A stretch of 12,538 nt of DNA from Candidatus Thorarchaeota archaeon MP8T_1. GTDB lineage: Archaea > Asgardarchaeota > Thorarchaeia > Thorarchaeales > Thorarchaeaceae. Positions 62 to 12,377 of the stretch are shown piece by piece. The notes under the pieces were generated by a model. That model made no database searches. It saw only the letters and a list, made by a program, of their open reading frames with translations, and had not been told where the DNA came from. Numbering within the stretch: position 1 is the first letter of the stretch; the number at the start of each line of letters is the position of its first letter. A program made the position numbers and the translations under genes. The stretch is taken from contig PJER01000098.1 in NCBI GenBank assembly GCA_002825465.1, positions 1-12,538 on the forward strand, read 5' to 3'.

Positions 62-631
62 ATGAATGTGGAGTTGACCTCTATGTCTACTGATTACCGT
101 TTCAAGATAGTCATGTTAGGAGACGGTGCAGTAGGCAAGACAGCTATGACTGCTAGGTTCACCCAAGATTATTTTGATGCGGACTACAAGAGAACAATCG
201 GTACGGATTTCTCGGTCAAGCGTATGAATATCCCTGAGATTGAAGCCCACGTTACACTGCAAATATGGGATCTAGCAGGTCAGCCCAGATTTGAGTTCGT
301 GCGACAGGGATTCTATAGAGGTTCTAGAGGAGGCCTTCTCCTGTACGATGTGACCAGACGGAGGACTTTTCTCAACACAGAGGCTTGGAGGGATGAAGCC
401 TTCAAGAACCTACAGACAGAGATACCTCTTGTTTTGGTGGCTAACAAGGTAGACCTTGATGATAGCAGAGCTGTAAGTACAGAGGAAGGAGAAGAATTCG
501 CTGAAAAGAATGGTTTTCTATATGTCGAGTCGAGCGCCCTCACAGGTGAGAATGTCGAGGAAGCATACCTCGCGCTGTGTAAGATCATGATCGAAGAGGG
601 AAAGACAAAGCCTGGTGCGACCTTATTGTAG
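62..631 (+). CDS. Ras/Rab-family small GTPase
   Basis: Small GTP-binding switch protein of 189 aa, the usual length of the Ras/Rab/Arf superfamily. All five G motifs are visible: P-loop GDGAVGKT (20-27), switch I threonine in TIGTDF (45-50), DLAGQ (70-74) with the catalytic glutamine present, NKVD (128-131) for guanine specificity, and ESSA (156-159). The residue after the glutamine is Pro instead of the Glu usual in Rabs. The C-terminus has no cysteine, so eukaryote-style prenylation is not expected, and no membrane segment is visible. The start is undecided: ATG 62 would fit a leaderless transcript from the TATA-like box at 37-44, while ATG 83 has GGAG 9 bases upstream. The gene ends 7 bp from the convergent WD40 gene. 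Asgard genomes are known to be rich in such GTPases; the partner and membrane target are unknown. Confidence 0.93.
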   Translation: MNVELTSMSTDYRFKIVMLGDGAVGKTAMTARFTQDYFDADYKRTIGTDFSVKRMNIPEIEAHVTLQIWDLAGQPRFEFVRQGFYRGSRGGLLLYDVTRRRTFLNTEAWRDEAFKNLQTEIPLVLVANKVDLDDSRAVSTEEGEEFAEKNGFLYVESSALTGENVEEAYLALCKIMIEEGKTKPGATLL

Positions 632-638
632 TCGCTGG

Positions 639-1790
639 TCATTTACGTGTTGTTCCTTTCAATAGACCGAGAGCACGCTTACATTGCCAGACAACATAGA
701 ACATACGTTTTGTCTGAAGGGTTTCTTCATCATATTGTGCACAGATTTCTTCAAATTTCTGAACAAACTCATCTCTACGACTCGGGTCATTTGCGGATTC
801 TATTTCCTTCAGCAATAATTGAAATGGTTCAAGCATTGAAGCCATGTCCTCTACTTCCCAACGGATGATTGCTCCTGTACCATCAGCAGTGAGGAACGCG
901 TTACGAGAAGGGTACCATTCTATCCCGTCAATCTCACCTATTGTGGAAGCTTCGCCTTGGACAGTTTGGGTTGCCACGTCCCAGAGATAGATAGTTCTAT
1001 CACCAGAGCCTGAAGCAAGATAACGACCGTCACTACTAAAACCAAGAGCTCTAACTTCGCTCTCGTGCCGCTGAAGGGTCTGCATTACCTGCATTGGTTT
1101 GATTGTTGTATCCCATAATAGCATAGTTAAGTCAGAGGAACCAGATACGAGCCTTGATCCATCAGGATTGAATCGAACTTCTCTGACCGCGGCTCGATGA
1201 TCCTCGTGACGATCTATCATCTGTCCCGTTTCAGCATCCCATTCGCAGATGTTCGCGTCAACAGAGCCTGACACAATACGACTACCTTGAGGGTCCCAAT
1301 CAACAGTGACAACATAGAATCCATGGCCTTTCATTTGACGAATCAATGCGTGATTTTCAATGTCCCAAATGATGAGAGTTGTATCGCCACTGCCTGATAC
1401 GAGCTTTTTCCCATCAGGAGAGAAGGAAAGACACAGTACAGGATACGTATGCCCCTCTAGTATGCCAATACATTCTCCTGAGCGTATGTCCCACAACTTC
1501 ACCAATCTTTCTACGGTTCCGGAAGCAACAATGTCTCCCTTTGGACTGAACGCGAGTGACGTACTGAGAAAATCATCTTGCATCCGTTGTATCTCTGTAC
1601 AATCATCTGCCGCATAGAGCCGTATACTTCTATCTTGAAGAGCTGCTGCAAACATGCGGCCCACTCGATTCATTGCAAAACGACGGGTTATTTCAGACCC
1701 ATGTTCAGCCTGTGGCTTGAGTATTGTGGGTTTCAAAAAGATGTTCTGTTCATCATTATCCATGATATCACGCACAGGACTGATTGACAC
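639..1790 (-). CDS. Seven-bladed WD40 beta-propeller protein
   Basis: Protein of 383 aa. Seven WD40 blades end at LYAA 58-61, LWDI 99-102, IWDI 141-144, EWDA 183-186, LWDT 225-228, LWDV 269-272 and RWEV 310-313, most with the preceding FSPDG/SGSGD pattern. The count matches one complete closed propeller. An N-terminal tail (1-33) precedes it, and a charged, helical C-terminal segment (about 315-380) follows. No signal peptide or membrane segment is seen, so it is probably a cytosolic scaffold for protein assembly. GTG 1790 is the longest start; an in-frame ATG at 1763 is equally possible, and neither has a clear ribosome site. The gene is convergent with the first GTPase and divergent from the HEAT/appendage gene. 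That placement suggests a coat-like scaffold, but WD40 proteins have many roles and no substrate can be read from sequence. Confidence 0.93.
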   Translation of the reverse strand: MSISPVRDIMDNDEQNIFLKPTILKPQAEHGSEITRRFAMNRVGRMFAAALQDRSIRLYAADDCTEIQRMQDDFLSTSLAFSPKGDIVASGTVERLVKLWDIRSGECIGILEGHTYPVLCLSFSPDGKKLVSGSGDTTLIIWDIENHALIRQMKGHGFYVVTVDWDPQGSRIVSGSVDANICEWDAETGQMIDRHEDHRAAVREVRFNPDGSRLVSGSSDLTMLLWDTTIKPMQVMQTLQRHESEVRALGFSSDGRYLASGSGDRTIYLWDVATQTVQGEASTIGEIDGIEWYPSRNAFLTADGTGAIIRWEVEDMASMLEPFQLLLKEIESANDPSRRDEFVQKFEEICAQYDEETLQTKRMFYVVWQCKRALGLLKGTTRK

Positions 1791-1926
1791 GCGGCCGAAT
1801 CAGAGGTTCCGTAAAAGTGTTGTGAATATAGAAAGAATATATTGCGACGGGTTAAAATCAAGAACCGTCTCTGTATCACAATAACGATTAAATGTTAGAT
1901 GAAGAGGGAATTCATGAGGGTGCTCC
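1791..1926. promoter_or_regulatory. Shared divergent promoter region of the WD40 and HEAT/appendage genes
   Basis: This 136-bp gap lies between two divergently read genes. It holds an AT-rich block around 1825-1842 with TATA-like cores on both strands (AATATA at 1825-1830, read TATATT on the minus strand; AATATAT at 1836-1842) and a further TTAAAATC at 1852-1859. Co-regulation of the propeller and the solenoid is a reasonable inference. An out-of-frame ORF of 24 codons begins inside it at ATG 1892. Confidence 0.4.
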
Positions 1927-3150
1927 TTGTCCAGAAAACCTGATAGAGTTGTGTCAGAAGCATTAGGTGGAGGAGAATCAGTTAGTCGTTTAAAGAAGGC
2001 AATGCGGAAGATCTTCAAGCCATCTGAAGATAAAATCGAAAAAATGTTAGAAGAAATCACTAGCATTCAAGCATGCAAAGATGCCGCATTAACGGGGGAT
2101 GATGATTTGCGACTACTAGCAATTTGTAGACTCGGACAGTTTGGAGTAGATGCCTACGAATCTCTAGATATTGCTCTCACTGATGAGAATCCACTCATTC
2201 GTACCTCAGCAGCAGGCATGTTGGCATACACGAAGAGACGTGATGCAATACCAATTCTTGAGCAGCACATTAACGAGAATGATGCTACTGTAAAAATAAT
2301 GGTAGATTTCGCCTTGGAGTGGTTGCTCAAGTATGGAAAAGATATCCCTTTAGGAAAGAAGATTCCAAAATCCCGTGAGAATCCAACTGAGATTCTTATT
2401 GATACAGAAACAGTTCCTCTTCGGACGACCGATGATGTCTTAGTTGTAAATGATTACACAACTACATCAGAGTCGCTGGAGTATGGTATAACTATCATAA
2501 ATGAAGGCAAAAACCCAATCAGTGAAGTCACAGTAAAAGTACTATCATATCCAAGCGAGTCATTAGAGCCTGTGGATTCGCTTAGTCAAACAATAGAAAC
2601 TATCGATGCAGGAGATTCTGGTGCGTTGATATTTGGATTTTCTATTCGTGGCGAGTGTATTGAGGGTGAAATCATAACATCGGTACAACTTGTAGATTCG
2701 ACAGGCGAGGATCTCTCAGCTAAGGCAGGCAATGTGTTTGTTCGGTCTCTATTCGAGCAGTTTCAACCTCTTGAGTTGAGCGCTGATGATTTCATCCGAA
2801 TGAAATCAGACATGAAGCAATGGAACAGGGAACACACCATGCTTGCAGAAGCAGCGGACCTGCATGAGTCACTATTTTTAATTCTAGAAGGAAAGAATCT
2901 TCATGTCTTCCAGAGTGATGCGATTGAAAGAGAGGGTATGTTCATGGGAGTGCAGACTGGATTGGCAGAGGGCAAGTTCAGTAAGACGAGAATTGCAGTA
3001 ACCTTGACTGTGGTTGGAAGCAAGGATGATAATTTATCAAAGATGAGAATCGACGTTTTTGCTGATGATTCAGAATTGCTTCAAACAGCTGCTAGTGACG
3101 TCTTTGAAACAATACAGAGAGATCTCGGAGTATTGGAGGAGGAAAAATAG
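1927..3150 (+). CDS. HEAT-repeat protein with adaptin/coatomer-like appendage
   Basis: Protein of 407 aa in three parts. Residues 34-137 form HEAT-like helical pairs (for example 55-100, with the DENPLIRTSAAGML pattern). Residues about 168-272 look like an Ig-type beta-sandwich. Residues 275-400 resemble the platform subdomain of clathrin-adaptor and gamma-COP appendages: a QF-P-ELSADDF entry, a W-containing helix, then two strands and a final helix. A beta-sandwich followed by a platform is the layout of AP and gamma-COP ear domains; the match is from memory of the fold and gamma-COP sequence. No membrane segment is seen. The start is uncertain: TTG 1927 has GAGG 7 bases upstream, with GTG 1951 and ATG 2002 as alternatives and a possible frameshift upstream. 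It sits tail to tail with the second GTPase (7-bp gap). A role as an archaeal coat or adaptor subunit is inferred. Confidence 0.8.
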   Translation: MSRKPDRVVSEALGGGESVSRLKKAMRKIFKPSEDKIEKMLEEITSIQACKDAALTGDDDLRLLAICRLGQFGVDAYESLDIALTDENPLIRTSAAGMLAYTKRRDAIPILEQHINENDATVKIMVDFALEWLLKYGKDIPLGKKIPKSRENPTEILIDTETVPLRTTDDVLVVNDYTTTSESLEYGITIINEGKNPISEVTVKVLSYPSESLEPVDSLSQTIETIDAGDSGALIFGFSIRGECIEGEIITSVQLVDSTGEDLSAKAGNVFVRSLFEQFQPLELSADDFIRMKSDMKQWNREHTMLAEAADLHESLFLILEGKNLHVFQSDAIEREGMFMGVQTGLAEGKFSKTRIAVTLTVVGSKDDNLSKMRIDVFADDSELLQTAASDVFETIQRDLGVLEEEK

Positions 3151-3157
3151 ACTGCGT

Positions 3158-3724
3158 CTAGGTCAGTCCGCCAGCCTCAAGGATTTTGATTGCTAGCTCT
3201 AAGAAGGCAGCCTCGACATTTGTTCCTGTCTTTGCACTAGTTTCAAGGAAGGATGTAATGACACCATGACTGGCAATCTTGTCTGCAAGCTTCTGACCTT
3301 CCTCTGTGGTCACAATGGTCTGCGCCATCACAGGATTATCCTTGAATTGGTCCCTAAGGTCTATCTTATTGGCGATGAGAACGACGGGTATTTTCTTGCC
3401 TGCATTGGTCCAACACTCATCAACCCAATTCATGAGGTTGTCGAAAGACCCTCGTTCTACTGTTGAGTAGACTGCGAGTGCTCCTTGTGCACCTCTATAG
3501 AAGGTGGAGCGAACACTCTTGAAGTGCTCCTGACCAGCAAGGTCCCAGATCTGAATACTGACATCATGGCCACCTTCAAGTTGCATCTTCTTGACTGCAA
3601 AGTCGGCACCGATAGTGATCATGTAATTTGCTCGGAAACCTTCTCCCATGTATGTCCTGCGGAGACTAGTCTTTCCGACGCTTCCGTCTCCCATCAATAC
3701 AACCTTGAACAGTGCAGTGACCAT
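3158..3724 (-). CDS. Rab-like small GTPase
   Basis: Second small GTPase, 188 aa from ATG 3724. Motifs are P-loop GDGSVGKT (12-19), switch I T37, DLAGQE (61-66), NKID (119-122) and ETSAK (161-165). The WDLAGQEHF stretch is very close to the Rab/Arf-like consensus and keeps the catalytic Gln. About 15 extra residues lie between NKID and ETSAK. The C-terminus ends AGGLT without cysteine, so there is no prenylation signal. A GTG at 3733 in the same frame adds three residues, but that GTG forms part of a GGGGTG ribosome site 6 bases before ATG 3724, which favours ATG. Convergent with the HEAT/appendage gene. It differs clearly from the first GTPase, so the pair is not a recent duplicate. Likely the switch for a membrane or cytoskeletal process; partners are unknown. 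Confidence 0.93.
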   Translation of the reverse strand: MVTALFKVVLMGDGSVGKTSLRRTYMGEGFRANYMITIGADFAVKKMQLEGGHDVSIQIWDLAGQEHFKSVRSTFYRGAQGALAVYSTVERGSFDNLMNWVDECWTNAGKKIPVVLIANKIDLRDQFKDNPVMAQTIVTTEEGQKLADKIASHGVITSFLETSAKTGTNVEAAFLELAIKILEAGGLT

Positions 3725-3852
3725 ATTATGCACCCCAACTGAGGTAGTATCCTCTCTCTGAGTACTATCGCGCTAAAGAGATTTCCACTATTTGAGTCTA
3801 TGCCGATTGAATAGACAATGAAAAATGCACGGCTTGACCCAAGAGCTCAGTT

Positions 3853-5122: not shown

Positions 5123-5410
5123 GTGGGACGCACAGTCCGTACCTTCAGAGATGCAATCAGGATTGAAGAAACTCGCTGGAACGAGTTCAGGCGGACACTC
5201 AGACCAGCTCAGAGAGAGGCCTTTGATAAGATATTCGACCATGCTAGAAGCCTAGCAGATGCAGGCACAATGATTCCCACCCCTCGCATTACGGAGGTTA
5301 TCTTCCTCTCTGCCATCCTCTCTGCCATCCTCAGAATACAGGAAGAGATTGACTCGATTGGAAAGAGAATCGATACTCTAGAACAACTGCAGGAGGAGAG
5401 CACCCCCTGA
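5123..5410 (+). CDS. Small helical protein co-translated with PolB
   Basis: Protein of 95 aa, rich in charged residues and probably all helical, with no cysteine and no membrane segment. The C-terminal part (70-90) has the heptad pattern of a short coiled coil. GTG 5123 is supported by GAGG 8 bases upstream. The stop overlaps the polymerase ATG by one base (TGATG), so the two are almost certainly translated together. I recall small proteins with a similar N-terminal pattern (GRT, FRD, W, R-LR, FD-LFDHAR) in other archaea, possibly near PolB2, but cannot verify this. Residues 62-70 contain a tandem LSAI repeat from a 12-bp DNA duplication. An accessory factor of the polymerase is the best inference; no biochemical function is visible. 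Confidence 0.85.
   Translation: MGRTVRTFRDAIRIEETRWNEFRRTLRPAQREAFDKIFDHARSLADAGTMIPTPRITEVIFLSAILSAILRIQEEIDSIGKRIDTLEQLQEESTP
5305..5331 (+). repeat. 12-bp tandem duplication inside the small PolB-partner gene
   Basis: CCTCTCTGCCAT occurs twice in a row (5305-5316 and 5317-5328) with the beginning of a third copy. It adds four residues in frame (LSAI-LSAI) in the middle of a helix, so it looks like a recent, tolerated slippage event. Confidence 0.6.
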
Positions 5411-7689
5411 TGAGCAAGACCGGATGGCTCTTGGATGCAAATGTGGACCATGAGAGAGAGGCACTGACCCTCTGGATTAAGACAGAGGGAAAAACAAAGG
5501 GCTACACCTATCGTGGGTTCAACCCCTCAGTCTTCGTCAGTACTGACATGATTAGAAGCAGGGAATGGACTGAAGCAGACATACTGCGAGCAGTCCTCGA
5601 GCACCCAAAGGCTGTTGACGCACTAATTGTGCACAGGTTCACAAGTGTCTACGATGAGGAGAAGACCCCTGTCCTACAAGTGTTCACTACACCAGACGCA
5701 TTACAAGATGTGGCAAAAGATCTAGAACGGTTGCCGGGAGCTACAGTGTTCCATGCAGACATCGACCCGGTTCAACAATTCTTCATAACCAATGAAATGT
5801 TCGCTTTTGGGCGTGTCGAGTTCGAGGCAGAGGGAGATGAGGTGGTCAGTATCAGAGGTCTCGACAAGCGCGAGGATCCTGAATATGATATTCCAGAGCT
5901 TGAGATGATGGACTTTGAGGTGCTCATTGCCACAGAGCAGATTTTTCCCAAAATGGAGGACAGGATTCAACACATCGAGGTCTATTGTGGAGAAGGAACT
6001 GTACATATCGAGGATGAGGATGAAGGAGAGATTATCAGACGGTTCCAGAAGGTCATCGATGAGATAGACCCTGATGTAATAATAAGTAGAGGAGGGGATG
6101 ATAATCTCTTCCGATACCTCAGCATACGATCCAAGGTCAATGGACTGCAGCTGAGATTGTCCCGAGATGGAACTCCATTGAACGTGGTCTACCGAGAACC
6201 GCAGTCGTACTGGCAATACAATCGAATTATGTTCAGATCAGGAACACAGGTCATACTGAATGGAAGAATTCACATTGATCGGGGAAAGACAGGAATGCAC
6301 TTCTACGCCCCGATGGGATTAGAGGGGGTTGTAGAGAGCTGTCGGCTTGCCTTGGGTCGACCACAGAGAGTCGCACGAATGTCAATCGGTGGGGTAAACG
6401 CGGCTGTGCAGTTCTACAATGCTTACAAGATGGACATCCTCATACCTCCTGTCAAACGGAACCCGGAGTTCTTGAAATCAATCAATGAACTGACATCCAT
6501 TGACAGAGGGGGTCTCATCTTCCAGCCGAAACCAGACATCTATGAGGACGTTGCAGAGTGCGACTTCTCATCAATGTACCCAACACTCATGGTCACCAGA
6601 AATATCAGCCCAGAAACAATCTGTACGAGGACTAAATGCCCCTATGACTACCAGTACTGCATTAAGATTCCCCAACAGAGCTTCAAGATATGTACACACA
6701 GGCGAGGAATAGTGTCCAAATCATTAGAGATGCTTGTCAATAGACGGACAGACCTGAAGAAACTGATAGAGGAAGGGCAGGACGCCAAGAAGTACGAGTT
6801 CATACAGAACACTCTGAAGGGGGTGCTGGTTTCATGTTTTGGATACTTAGGATTCAAAAACGCGAAGTTTGGAAGAGTAGAGGCCCATACTGCGGTGACT
6901 GCACTTGCAAGAGAGGTCATGCTTGAGACCCAAGAGATTGGAGAAGAGATGGGTCTTGAGATGCTTCATGGTATTGTAGATTCTGTTTGGTTGAGAGCAA
7001 ATGAGGGAATGGTGGAGTACGACACTGTTGCAAAATTCTGTGAGCGTGTATCCAAGAAAGTCAATATCAAGATGTCACCAAAGGGAGTCTACAAATGGAT
7101 GGTGATCCCATCATCACGACTTCATCCGTCAATTGCACCATTGAATCGATACTATGGAGTCTACAGGAATGGAGAAATCAAGACACGAGGGATAGAAACA
7201 CGAAGACGGGATACCTGCCTCTATGTTGGAGACTGTCAGATGGCCATGATTAAGACACTCGCCCAAGCTAATGACAAGGCGGGCTTTTTACAACGCATAC
7301 CAGAAGCATATGAGGTCTGTCAAGGCTACATGGAGAGACTTTACGACCATGATGTTGATTTAAGAGACCTCATTCTGAATGCAAACCTGACTAGAGACCC
7401 TCATGAGTACCGTGCTGTATCAAGAGCCGCGGTTGTTGCTCAACAACTTGTAAAGGCTGGGCAAGAACTTCACGCAGGGCAACGGGTTAGGTATATCATG
7501 GTCAACGCAGACTCGGAGAATCCCTTGCGAAGAGTGAAAGCACTAGAACTCTTTGATGAGTCGACTAGATATGATCCAAAGGCTTACGCAGAGCTATGCC
7601 AGCGAGCCTTTGAGAGCCTAATTCCAGCTCAGTATCTTGAACCTTCAAGAGAGAGAGATCATGACCAAGTGCTACTAACTACTCAGTGA
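5410..7689 (+). CDS. Degenerate family-B DNA polymerase, PolB2-like
   Basis: Family-B polymerase of 759 aa. Residues 1-160 match the N-terminal domain, about 165-345 the exonuclease domain, and 380-600 palm and fingers. Motif A DFSSMYPT (385-392) is intact. Motif B (470-478) keeps the Lys and SxxG but has Val474 where Asn is usual. Motif C reads HGIVDS (520-525) in place of YGDTDS, so the first Asp is Ile while the metal-binding second Asp (D524) remains. The KxRG motif (591-594) is present. Exonuclease I reads IATE (173-176), lacking the D of DxE, and the exonuclease III YxxxD is gone, so proofreading is unlikely. A cysteine cluster (405, 410, 417, 428) may bind zinc. This pattern fits the archaeal PolB2 group, described as inactivated but with reports of activity and damage-tolerance roles in Sulfolobus. 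Overlaps the 3' end of larC by 11 bp. Confidence 0.9.
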   Translation: MSKTGWLLDANVDHEREALTLWIKTEGKTKGYTYRGFNPSVFVSTDMIRSREWTEADILRAVLEHPKAVDALIVHRFTSVYDEEKTPVLQVFTTPDALQDVAKDLERLPGATVFHADIDPVQQFFITNEMFAFGRVEFEAEGDEVVSIRGLDKREDPEYDIPELEMMDFEVLIATEQIFPKMEDRIQHIEVYCGEGTVHIEDEDEGEIIRRFQKVIDEIDPDVIISRGGDDNLFRYLSIRSKVNGLQLRLSRDGTPLNVVYREPQSYWQYNRIMFRSGTQVILNGRIHIDRGKTGMHFYAPMGLEGVVESCRLALGRPQRVARMSIGGVNAAVQFYNAYKMDILIPPVKRNPEFLKSINELTSIDRGGLIFQPKPDIYEDVAECDFSSMYPTLMVTRNISPETICTRTKCPYDYQYCIKIPQQSFKICTHRRGIVSKSLEMLVNRRTDLKKLIEEGQDAKKYEFIQNTLKGVLVSCFGYLGFKNAKFGRVEAHTAVTALAREVMLETQEIGEEMGLEMLHGIVDSVWLRANEGMVEYDTVAKFCERVSKKVNIKMSPKGVYKWMVIPSSRLHPSIAPLNRYYGVYRNGEIKTRGIETRRRDTCLYVGDCQMAMIKTLAQANDKAGFLQRIPEAYEVCQGYMERLYDHDVDLRDLILNANLTRDPHEYRAVSRAAVVAQQLVKAGQELHAGQRVRYIMVNADSENPLRRVKALELFDESTRYDPKAYAELCQRAFESLIPAQYLEPSRERDHDQVLLTTQ

Positions 7690-10034: not shown

Positions 10035-11426
10035 TCACTTTGACTTCTTTCCTTGAATCTTCATTCGCTCTGCCATGATACATCGGTCGCCCACACGCCC
10101 TCCCATTGGATGCTGAGTTGTTCCCATTGAGTTCATGCATCTTGCAGCTACAGCAGCCCCCATCGCAAGACCATCCTCAACAAATACAAGCTGCCGTGAT
10201 GCGGTCCAAAGATCTCCATCTTTCAATTGAAGACTTTCAGCAATTAATTTTGGTTTCTGGCCGGTTGTAATAGCTCGACCTGTGAGTCCTAGAGAGGTCT
10301 CATTAAGAAGGAGATTCTCTGACTCCGCAGTACTCACAATTCGTTGCACAATCCAAGCCTGCAACTGATCAATTAGAGCAAGAAGCTGAGATTCTTTTTC
10401 TTGGTCAGTTAGTTTCGATCCAAGTTTCTCCAATCTTTTCAAATCAGCATCAACACCAATCAGAACAACTTTTGATTCATCTGCAGCCTCAGTGTTGACT
10501 GGAACTGTTCCAAATCGGGTTACACCAGGTGGAACACGTTCTATCCGGATGAATTTCTGAACTTGCTCAAGCCAATCAGTGTTGACTTTCACAATTCGAG
10601 ACTTACTGCTCCTAGGAAGGTCAAGGGTGCATCCAATATCAGGCTGGACCAATCCAGATCCGCGTGTGAGAGCATCAGGGATGGCGCCAGCCAATCCAGC
10701 AAATGACCCAATTGTACGAGCGTATGGAAATCCATTGTCAGTAATTCGTCCAGCTAGAGTTGTTCCAAAGTCCAGGGTCATAACGGGATTCCTGAAATCA
10801 ATTGTCGTTCCCTTTACTGCACCCTTGATGCCTGCGGTAACAAGCTCGCCCTCCATCTCATTTGCCACAACCTCAGTATTCGCAGGAGGAATTGAAGAAG
10901 CGATGGCACCATCAAAATATACTTTCTTAAGCCAGGTAAAATCCCGAAGAGAAGGCGGCAAGTTATCAGCTGACATTGCTGCAGTCATTTTTCGAGGAGG
11001 AATACCAGCATTAATGCATCCGTCTGCAAGTGCCTGAACAATGGCACCCACTTCAGAGGGACTAGCAAAGCTTGCAGTGACACCAGTTGATCGCACAACA
11101 AAATGAAGATCTCTTTCAATATCTATGCCAGCTCTGGATGTGACAGAAAGTAATACACTTGAAACCAATTCAGCCACAGAATCCCTAGTTAATGGAACGC
11201 CAAACACGGTTTCGCCAAATATGACCTCATCAGACCTTGGCGGTCGTACATCTCGGGTCATACGTACCTCTTTCTCAATCTCGAATATCTCTCCGGATTT
11301 TAAGTTCGTCGTGACAAGTATGCACTTTGTTGTAGTGTTTCCTAATTCAACAGAAGCCACTGTGAAGAAATGACCCATTCTAAGAGAAGACAACCCGATT
11401 GCCTTTGGCCTTAGAACTCTCTGCAT
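10035..11426 (-). CDS. Methanogenesis marker protein 14 homologue (ASKHA-like)
   Basis: Protein of 463 aa that I recognise as methanogenesis marker 14, a family first defined as restricted to methanogens and of unknown function. It shows signs of an ASKHA (actin/hexokinase) ATPase fold: VELGNTTTK (26-34) resembles phosphate-1, LDFGTTLAGRI (218-228) resembles phosphate-2, GLTGRA (380-385) and GLAMGAAVAAR (419-429) resemble the adenosine and last helix regions. The ATG at 11426 is chosen because AAGGTGA (11435-11441) is a strong ribosome site 8 bases upstream; the in-frame GTG at 11438 lies inside that site. It follows mtrH by 15 bases, so the two are surely one operon. By analogy with ASKHA-type reactivators of corrinoid proteins, an ATP-driven activator or chaperone for the MtrH methyl-transfer system is possible; this is inference. 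Confidence 0.85.
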   Translation of the reverse strand: MQRVLRPKAIGLSSLRMGHFFTVASVELGNTTTKCILVTTNLKSGEIFEIEKEVRMTRDVRPPRSDEVIFGETVFGVPLTRDSVAELVSSVLLSVTSRAGIDIERDLHFVVRSTGVTASFASPSEVGAIVQALADGCINAGIPPRKMTAAMSADNLPPSLRDFTWLKKVYFDGAIASSIPPANTEVVANEMEGELVTAGIKGAVKGTTIDFRNPVMTLDFGTTLAGRITDNGFPYARTIGSFAGLAGAIPDALTRGSGLVQPDIGCTLDLPRSSKSRIVKVNTDWLEQVQKFIRIERVPPGVTRFGTVPVNTEAADESKVVLIGVDADLKRLEKLGSKLTDQEKESQLLALIDQLQAWIVQRIVSTAESENLLLNETSLGLTGRAITTGQKPKLIAESLQLKDGDLWTASRQLVFVEDGLAMGAAVAARCMNSMGTTQHPMGGRVGDRCIMAERMKIQGKKSK

Positions 11427-11434
11427 AGTCTTTC

Positions 11435-11441
11435 TCACCTT
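11435..11441 (-). promoter_or_regulatory. Ribosome binding site deciding the marker-14 start
   Basis: Read on the minus strand as AAGGTGA, it matches the 3' half of the AGGAGGTGA consensus and lies 8 bases from ATG 11426, directly after the mtrH stop. The GTG inside it would otherwise be called as the start. Confidence 0.65.
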
Positions 11442-12377
11442 TCAGAGTAGTTTCTTGAACGGATGTCCTGCATCTGGTTCAATACCAAATTCCAAGTACC
11501 CAGACTCTGCAACGAAAACATCACCCATTGCTATGACTGGGAACACTCGGTCAGCGTTCTCAATCGGTCCATAGAGTACAAAATCAGCACCCATAATTTG
11601 TACGATGATATTTGATGCAATATCAGCTGTATAAAATGCCTCACGATCTGTCTTCTTGTATTTCCTTAACCAGGTCCAGGATGAAGGGGCATTATGTACT
11701 CCTGACCCAGTGGGCATACCATAAACTGTCTTTGCTACTAAGGTAAAGGCTGCTGCAGAACCTGCTCCCGCACCTATCGCTGTTACTGCGGTATCTATTA
11801 GGGGTTTTGTCACTCCAACATCTTTACACAAATCAAGAAGTCCTTTTTCGCTCTCCAAGACAGGTTTCTCAAGAACGGCTCTTCTGCCTGCAATTGTTGA
11901 ATCTTGAGGATTAAATGCTAGAACTATTGCACATTCATGACGCAATTCCTTGAGCGCTTCAATCTCCTCTGACGTAGCAGATACATTGATGGAGTTGTAG
12001 ATTGCTTGATCTGAGAGACCTATTTCCTCAGCATGCTTCAGACCAGCAATTCGTACCATGGGTTCTGTGGAGTCTATTAAGAATGGAGCATTTGTAATGT
12101 TAGTGACAAAATCGATGTAATGACACATTGCTTCCTCGGATTCGGAGAATATCTGAACAAGGGCAGGATTACCTGTCATTTCAGACATTTCATCCTGTTT
12201 GAGCAACAGTAATCTTGCCTTATCCTTATCGAAAACACCTTTCTTTGCATCTTCAACTATTTTATGTCCGCCATAGAAGATAGTTCCTGCAAGGGCCGTG
12301 GCTACCTCACCGAGATTCCCACCGATTTTGACACCGCCGATGTTATGGATTATTTGTTCTTTCTCAAATACAAACAA
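11442..12377 (-). CDS. mtrH: MtrH-family tetrahydromethanopterin methyltransferase
   Basis: Protein of 311 aa, matching MtrH in length and in sequence from end to end. MtrH transfers the methyl group of methyl-tetrahydromethanopterin to a corrinoid protein (MtrA in methanogens). Recognisable blocks are the N-terminal F-F-KEQ (2-8), LAGTIFY..HKIVEDAKKG.FD (29-50), TGNPALVQ (68-75), PFLIDST (98-104), IYNSINVS (126-133), PLIDTAVT (192-199), TGSGVHNAPSSW (223-234) and ADFVLYGPIENA (264-275). The protein is soluble with no membrane segment. TTG 12377 is supported by a perfect AAGGAGGA site 9 bases upstream, inside the end of the preceding gene. The closeness to methanogen MtrH suggests methyl-H4MPT is still the donor. 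No other mtr gene is visible, so its corrinoid partner is unknown; MtrH homologues outside methanogens serve other C1 routes. Confidence 0.93.
   Translation of the reverse strand: MFVFEKEQIIHNIGGVKIGGNLGEVATALAGTIFYGGHKIVEDAKKGVFDKDKARLLLLKQDEMSEMTGNPALVQIFSESEEAMCHYIDFVTNITNAPFLIDSTEPMVRIAGLKHAEEIGLSDQAIYNSINVSATSEEIEALKELRHECAIVLAFNPQDSTIAGRRAVLEKPVLESEKGLLDLCKDVGVTKPLIDTAVTAIGAGAGSAAAFTLVAKTVYGMPTGSGVHNAPSSWTWLRKYKKTDREAFYTADIASNIIVQIMGADFVLYGPIENADRVFPVIAMGDVFVAESGYLEFGIEPDAGHPFKKLL

Follow-up and report, generated by a model that had tools for sequence, protein, structure and literature searches.

A HEAT-hinge-appendage protein encoded beside Rab-like GTPases in Thorarchaeota: a possible switch-and-adaptor module

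Do two small GTPases, a WD40 propeller and a HEAT-repeat protein encoded side by side in an Asgard archaeon of the eukaryote-related Thorarchaeota make up a primitive vesicle coat? An earlier note had proposed this for four genes near the start of a 12,538-nucleotide stretch of DNA (contig PJER01000098.1 of Candidatus Thorarchaeota archaeon MP8T_1), here called the window. The genes are designated GTPase1, WD40, HEATapp and GTPase2 (Table 1). Here we compared the locus across Asgard genomes and modeled HEATapp, which is predicted to carry a HEAT part, a hinge, a sandwich and a platform on one chain, with a docking-ear-like end. The set looks like a small switch-and-adaptor module rather than a complete vesicle coat.

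Predicted structure of HEATapp

The AlphaFold2 (AF2) model of HEATapp has a pLDDT of 82.4 and a pTM of 0.53. Its C-terminal part is predicted to form an appendage in which an immunoglobulin (Ig)-like sandwich is followed by a platform subdomain. The earlier note had inferred an appendage, and the predicted structure bears this out, with weak sequence support. Sequence identity to HEATapp in the AP2 and COPI appendage fold matches is 8-14%. The family PF14806 (Coatomer_b_Cpla) matches 7 of 29 HEATapp family members at E≤1 (best 0.0011), and the three of these matches whose scores were examined are all under the cut-off (e.g., P0026 residues 275-366, E 0.0016); HEATapp of the window itself has no PF14806 match at E≤1. 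One family member matches PF02883 (Alpha_adaptinC2) weakly, at E 0.19. In the Pfam scan the HEATapp open reading frame (ORF) matches HEAT_2 alone (1.2e-5, slightly below the family cut-off).

Eukaryotic adaptor subunits also carry a HEAT trunk, a hinge and an ear on one chain, with a trunk of about 600 residues in the large subunits of the adaptor protein (AP) complexes and COPI. HEATapp differs from the AP2 alpha/beta2 and COPI beta-COP/gamma-COP proteins in that its HEAT part spans about 90 residues rather than about 600 and is generic, HEAT_2- or alphaRep-like. A long adaptin trunk was not found: the HEAT part is confined to residues 45-135, and Adaptin_N is not among the best 25 of the 33 families listed for the 29 members.

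The appendage belongs to a larger Asgard superfamily. A paralogue at L090:6077-7165 aligns with HEATapp residues 165-396 (23% identity, E 2e-18), and appendage-only matches are numerous in Asgard genomes (e.g., eight listed in genome G199). L090:2744-8291 (G002) holds a cluster of appendage paralogues of about 350-390 aa, two of them with C-terminal zinc-ribbon-like matches. At L047:1-2313 and L054:1-2310 (G199 and G195), a NosD right-handed beta-helix is followed by a hydrophobic segment (about 443-451) and an appendage-like region (about 501-729); these proteins are possible membrane receptors with an intracellular appendage. In L048 (G197) the hydrophobic segment and the appendage region are present and the NosD match is absent.

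Conserved gene order around HEATapp

A scan of GTDB 220 contigs gave 12 loci (L001-L012); 227 Asgard genomes were then searched and 35 further stretches added, for a mapped total of 48 loci in 42 genomes, the window included. Gene calls in the relatives are mechanical ORFs, and adjacency means within 400 bp, counted only where both genes share one locus. The relatives' genomes come without completeness or contamination values and are mostly fragmented; an isolated absence may therefore be an assembly fault, and remnants or clade-wise absences are more reliable.

HEATapp with its HEAT region is present in 22 of the 227 genomes (E≤1e-80). GTPase1 was found in 37 (E≤1e-60), WD40 in 36 (E≤1e-110) and GTPase2 in 40 (E≤1e-60; 76-98% identity). 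Relatives of HEATapp from named organisms are mostly Thorarchaeota, including 12/12 in the GTDB 220 contig scan. The order GTPase1-WD40-HEATapp-GTPase2, on the same strands, recurs in L001-L009 and L011, with a contig end cutting GTPase2 in L001 and L005, an additional 324-aa ORF separating WD40 from HEATapp in L001, and a 399-bp gap before GTPase2 in L009. L010 ends in HEATapp and L012 is rearranged. The same order is kept in G218, G219, and G200 despite HEATapp identities of 31-33%, which argues that it is not due to chance.

The earlier note had called for synteny to be checked across Asgard genomes, and the four genes are not scattered: GTPase1-WD40 are adjacent in 35/35 cases, WD40-HEATapp in 22/23 and HEATapp-GTPase2 in 19/19, a decayed copy in G213 being counted in the latter two. 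They do not, however, form a self-contained cluster: in relatives the block continues past the window edge and on both sides. Upstream of GTPase1 lie genes for a Robl/LC7 roadblock protein (adjacent to GTPase1 in 29/31), two KaiC-like ATPases, a TPR protein and an EF-like GTPase; downstream of GTPase2 lies PolB-LarC-CofE-MM14-MtrH, where MM14 is methanogenesis marker 14. The four genes belong to a block of about 15 fixed genes.

These neighbors provide a control. PolB-LarC (36/36), LarC-CofE (34/34), CofE-MM14 (30/30), and MM14-MtrH (27/27) are as strictly adjacent as the four genes, as are TPR765-KaiC1 (27/27); the pairs often more than 400 bp apart are KaiC2-Robl (24/30, with an ORF of about 110 aa between) and GTPase2-94aa (15/39). 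With metabolic genes equally fixed, conserved order does not point specifically to a complex, and we rejected synteny as proof of one. The controls suit another explanation, in which the block is ancient and rarely rearranged and HEATapp, the GTPases and WD40 have unrelated jobs. HEATapp is convergent or divergent relative to its neighbors, which by strand excludes a shared transcript, as this explanation would have it. Against unrelated jobs, HEATapp with its HEAT region lies inside the block in 22/22 genomes and stays beside Robl-GTPase1 when the block breaks on the other side (below). Overall, we regard mere neighborhood as a doubtful account, albeit one of real weight.

Repeated loss of HEATapp and displacement of its neighbors

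The GTPase/WD40/roadblock set is the steadier part of the locus and HEATapp the losable one. An intact HEATapp lies in 18 of the 34 WD40-GTPase2 intervals, the window's among them; G213 has a decayed copy, and the other 15 lack the gene. WD40 and GTPase2 are codirectional in all 15 HEATapp-less intervals, lying within 150 bp of each other in 12 and spaced 400-454 bp apart in three. In the decayed copy of G213, residues 262-392 survive, spread over two reading frames (E 3e-8 and 6e-30), and a 27-residue C-terminal HEATapp remnant (E 6e-6) persists in G208, one of the 15. G210 was left out of the count, its WD40 lying off the contig; no similarity to HEATapp appears in the 629 bp that follow its GTPase2. 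A codirectional frame of about 106 aa lies between GTPase2 and WD40 in the three wider of the HEATapp-less intervals, as a listed ORF at L073:5653-5973 (G203) and L080:637-957 (G202) and as a similar reading frame in translation at L068 10484-10938 (G201); no HEATapp similarity was found in these frames.

A FastTree phylogeny of 13 block proteins places the losses on roughly five branches, as judged by eye on a midpoint-rooted tree with support below 0.9 at eight nodes. Tree distances for HEATapp and the block correlate with r 0.95 over 23 sequences, and this agreement makes vertical inheritance with repeated loss the simplest account. Horizontal transfer as the main cause of the patchiness was rejected on the same congruence and on the unchanged position of the gene. 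The viral contigs searched contain no HEATapp relative. A search with the G200 HEATapp returned four proteins at E≤1e-10, including the query, one of them labeled Thorarchaeota.

The arrangement of the intervals also bears on the description of the cluster as mirror-symmetric, which holds for the strands and fails for the genes, the two GTPases being paralogues with 44% identity. WD40 and GTPase2 are codirectional in 34/34 intervals, and the symmetry exists because HEATapp sits reversed between them; we therefore rejected it as a signal.

Three genomes show the block broken on the GTPase2 side. In G012, a complete chromosome, WD40 is gone genome-wide (the best remaining match is 33%, over partial length) and GTPase2 lies 0.85 Mb away, and HEATapp still adjoins GTPase1 and Robl. 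HEATapp and GTPase2 lie in different loci about 15 kb apart in G214 and on different contigs in G215; being in different loci, the pairs of G214 and G012 drop out of the HEATapp-GTPase2 count. In all three, HEATapp keeps to the Robl-GTPase1 side. Its partner is thus more likely to be GTPase1, and WD40 pairs more plausibly with GTPase2. The displaced GTPase2 adjoins like-sized ORFs (132 and about 450 aa) in all three genomes (L064 in G012, L086 in G215, L074 in G214), which suggests one shared rearrangement, the ORFs being likened by size alone.

The GTPases, the WD40 protein and the coat hypothesis

One member of the locus already has a solved structure. The best PDB match of GTPase1 is "Thorarchaeota Rab" (7ezb, E 4.4e-91), and by sequence GTPase1 is the Thor-Rab orthologue. 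The Thor-Rab gene is KXH73347.1 on LRSL01000056.1, according to the parts of Tran et al. 2024 covered here (PMC10933270). That contig, from SMTZ1-45, is our locus L009, in which the Thor-Rab gene adjoins WD40, HEATapp, and GTPase2. The words "synten" and "gene cluster" are absent from the text of that paper, and its portions consulted do not mention HEATapp or WD40.

Both GTPases have a Rab-type core, with Thor-Rab and then Rabs as their nearest PDB matches. They are Ras- rather than Arf-like, with Pfam scores for GTPase1 and GTPase2 of 173.1 and 159.5 bits for Ras (PF00071) vs 37.4 and 37.1 bits for Arf. Neither has a C-terminal prenylation cysteine: GTPase1 has a single cysteine, Cys173, in its 189 residues, GTPase2 has only Cys107 in its 191, and the tails end in GATLL and AGGLT, respectively. 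Thor-Rab (7EZB/7EZD/7EZE) resembles GTPase1 in this too, its lack of C-terminal cysteines being stated in the available part of PMC10933270. At 189 and 191 aa, the proteins consist of the GTPase domain only, and the C-terminal roadblock domain of Rag-type GTPases is missing. GTPase2 is very strongly conserved, at 92-98% in close relatives and at 76-87% where HEATapp is only 31-47% identical. The WD40 protein is, from its sequence, a beta-propeller. A propeller and an alpha-solenoid on one chain, as in protocoatomer proteins, were not found; here they are encoded by separate, divergent genes.

Would these components then form a coat? In that hypothesis, WD40 and HEATapp would co-assemble on a membrane under GTPase control and bend it. 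The earlier note was correct that all three component types are adjacent; the gene order is conserved, and the appendage has a COPI/AP-type fold in the predicted structure. The coat itself does not follow from this: the order is non-specific and the components are separable, with HEATapp lost or decayed in 16/34 intervals, WD40 lost in G012, and GTPase1 missing in another genome, G010. The HEATapp losses, the separable members, the cysteine-less GTPases, the short HEAT part, and the separate propeller and solenoid genes all weaken the coat hypothesis. In addition, Pfam recognized no sigma/mu-type partner among the block proteins scanned, with the rest of the genome left unsearched. We consider a primitive coat at this locus very unlikely.

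A possible switch module with an accessory adaptor

We tentatively favor a reading in which Robl, the Rab-like GTPase1, WD40, and GTPase2 form a switch module to which HEATapp is added as an accessory single-chain adaptor in part of the lineage. Robl would regulate GTPase1, and GTP-bound GTPase1 would position HEATapp through its HEAT part, either on the cytoplasmic side of the cell membrane or on a partner bound to the membrane. The appendage could then gather short peptide motifs of client proteins in the fashion of the AP2 and COPI ears, and WD40 may serve as a scaffold tied more to GTPase2. HEATapp would thus work like an adaptor ear, without a polymerizing coat.

Several observations weigh against this reading. 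The pTM leaves the relative placement of the HEATapp domains loose, and with the whole block conserved, adjacency may carry no functional message. Many genomes keep the GTPases without HEATapp, so the GTPases do not need it. No membrane anchor was found in any of the four proteins, and no hydrophobic stretch reaches transmembrane strength; together with the cysteine-less GTPase tails, this means that membrane contact would need partners. Finally, in the metagenome-assembled genome G010, Robl is followed after 42 bp by WD40 and then HEATapp, and GTPase1 is missing. The contig, of 6,951 bases, shows no GTPase1 remnant; elsewhere in the genome the closest GTPase1-like match reaches 54%, and a search for GTPase2 at E≤1e-60 gave nothing. 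Faulty assembly or incompleteness could be responsible, but as it stands G010 speaks against GTPase1 as a necessary partner of HEATapp. It also weakens the pairing of HEATapp with GTPase1 and of WD40 with GTPase2, and it strengthens the explanation by mere neighborhood. The Robl of G010 (L010:3951-5714, SOKL01000065.1) is encoded by a 172-aa ORF in which 47 additional residues precede the conserved part.

The genes upstream raise another alternative. Robl, the two GTPases, WD40, the KaiC-like ATPases and the TPR solenoid could together form a sensory or polarity module resembling MglA/MglB or Rag/Ragulator, with HEATapp as one of many appendage proteins that serve in ESCRT-linked sorting. The adjacency of Robl-GTPase1 and TPR765-KaiC1, that of KaiC1-KaiC2 (28/28), and the many paralogous appendage-only matches are consistent with this, and archaeal ESCRT loci carry appendage proteins, as part of PMC10936438 indicates. 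On the other side, neither GTPase has the C-terminal roadblock domain of the Rags, and no ESCRT gene was recognized by Pfam among the block proteins scanned. A sensory or polarity module including HEATapp in this way seems unlikely.

Gene layout and other genes of the block

The four ORFs are present as the earlier note had described them, in +,-,+,- order with 7-bp convergent gaps and a 136-bp divergent gap. Two of the starts listed are probably too early. Alignment places the WD40 start at a Met common to the relatives, near 1763, so that the divergent gap would be about 163 bp, and the conserved start of GTPase2 is probably a Met three codons in.

Table 1. Positions of the four genes, their intergenic gaps and the predicted parts of HEATapp in the window.
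Feature	Position	Strand	Basis and remarks
GTPase1, Rab/Ras-like small GTPase	62..631	+	Pfam Ras 4.5e-51; orthologue of crystallized Thor-Rab (7EZB)
Stop-to-stop gap GTPase1/WD40, 7 bp	632..638	.	Median 6 bp over 35 loci
WD40 propeller protein, ~70-residue conserved C-terminal tail	639..1790	-	Pfam WD40 6.1e-50, 5 stretches
Divergent intergenic region WD40/HEATapp	1791..1926	.	136 bp per ORF list
HEATapp, HEAT-hinge-appendage protein	1927..3150	+	AF2 model, fold matches
HEAT part (predicted)	2062..2334	+	Model residues 45-135 (~90 residues); nearest generic HEAT_2/alphaRep
Hinge (predicted)	2335..2421	+	Residues 136-164; pLDDT <50 at 142-160
Appendage beta-sandwich (predicted)	2422..2748	+	Residues 165-273; AF2 and fold matches
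Appendage platform (predicted)	2782..3123	+	Residues 285-398; helix-strand-helix-4 strands-helix
Stop-to-stop gap HEATapp/GTPase2, 7 bp	3151..3157	.	ORF list
GTPase2, second Rab/Ras-like GTPase	3158..3733	-	Pfam Ras 6.9e-47

The rest of the window is unremarkable and encodes a protein with weak zinc-ribbon matches, a PNPOx-fold protein, a 94-aa protein, PolB, LarC, CofE, methanogenesis marker 14, and an MtrH homologue. The end of the 94-aa gene overlaps the PolB start (within 5123-7689, base 5410 being common to both), and the two adjoin in 38/38 loci holding both; the small protein is a possible polymerase partner. At 10035-12377, methanogenesis marker 14 (6e-176) adjoins the MtrH homologue (2.9e-116), with CofE alongside, in this Thorarchaeal genome.

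Left of the window edge, L002:3413-8047 shows the arrangement in relatives: TPR765, two KaiC-like ATPases, the protein of about 110 aa, Robl/LC7, and then GTPase1. The AF2 model of TPR765 is an all-helical TPR solenoid (pLDDT 73), and the protein has no PDB sequence match at E≤0.01. We rejected it as a coat solenoid, as most of its Foldseek matches are to general TPR proteins (Ctr9, LGN) and a single IFT-A row appears, at rank 43.

Relation to known systems

The general proto-coat idea for Asgard archaea is already in print, as are archaeal appendage domains, in the portions of the literature consulted. Two reviews citing a 2017 Asgard paper describe, in the parts available, propeller and solenoid proteins, together with Rab-like GTPases, as the components of a primitive coat (PMC6141808, PMC6449795). 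The former also puts the beta and alpha proteins of Asgard archaea on a single cistron, and a related cluster may therefore have been described before. The sections covered of Eme et al. 2023 (PMC10307638) report all AP functional domains in Asgard archaea, and a legend there describes five AP/COPI domains as "not fused to each other." HEATapp differs in having a HEAT part, sandwich, and platform on one predicted chain, with a HEAT part not shown to be an adaptin trunk. It also differs from AP2 and COPI in that its block has no recognized sigma/mu partner (block proteins scanned with Pfam) and in its 8-14% identity.

Two further archaeal systems are comparable. Appendage proteins of ESCRT loci in archaea, including Asgard archaea, combine an Ig sandwich with a TBP-like platform (mBio 2024, PMC10936438, in part), and the likeness to HEATapp lies in these two subdomains. 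Their partners are Zn-ribbon, GOLD, Vps28-C, and longin domains; a HEAT-hinge-appendage chain or a Rab/WD40 locus does not occur in the examined text of that paper. ArvA is an archaeal small GTPase with operon partners that is needed for vesicle formation, as described in the accessible part of PMC10927574. The locus here shares with it a small GTPase with gene partners. ArvB is a DUF2073 protein and ArvC a Zn ribbon, and an appendage or WD40 protein does not appear in the same part of the text.

The literature searched, in which the 2017 Asgard paper is represented by the reviews, yielded no HEAT-hinge-appendage chain and no account of its repeated loss or its position next to Thor-Rab. The partly consulted earlier reports describe Asgard domains that are unfused (PMC10307638) or ears on ESCRT-type domains (PMC10936438); HEATapp is predicted to join HEAT, hinge, and complete ear. 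It is quite unlikely, but conceivable, that HEATapp represents a surviving single-chain precursor of the large adaptor subunits, one that a Rab-like GTPase recruited, with Thor-Rab as the switch, at a time when prenylation, sigma/mu subunits, and clathrin or COPI cages had yet to appear. HEATapp and the orthologue of the crystallized Rab offer a tangible soluble pair with which to ask whether the recruitment of adaptors by GTPases is older than eukaryotes, and the repeated losses of HEATapp provide natural null lineages.

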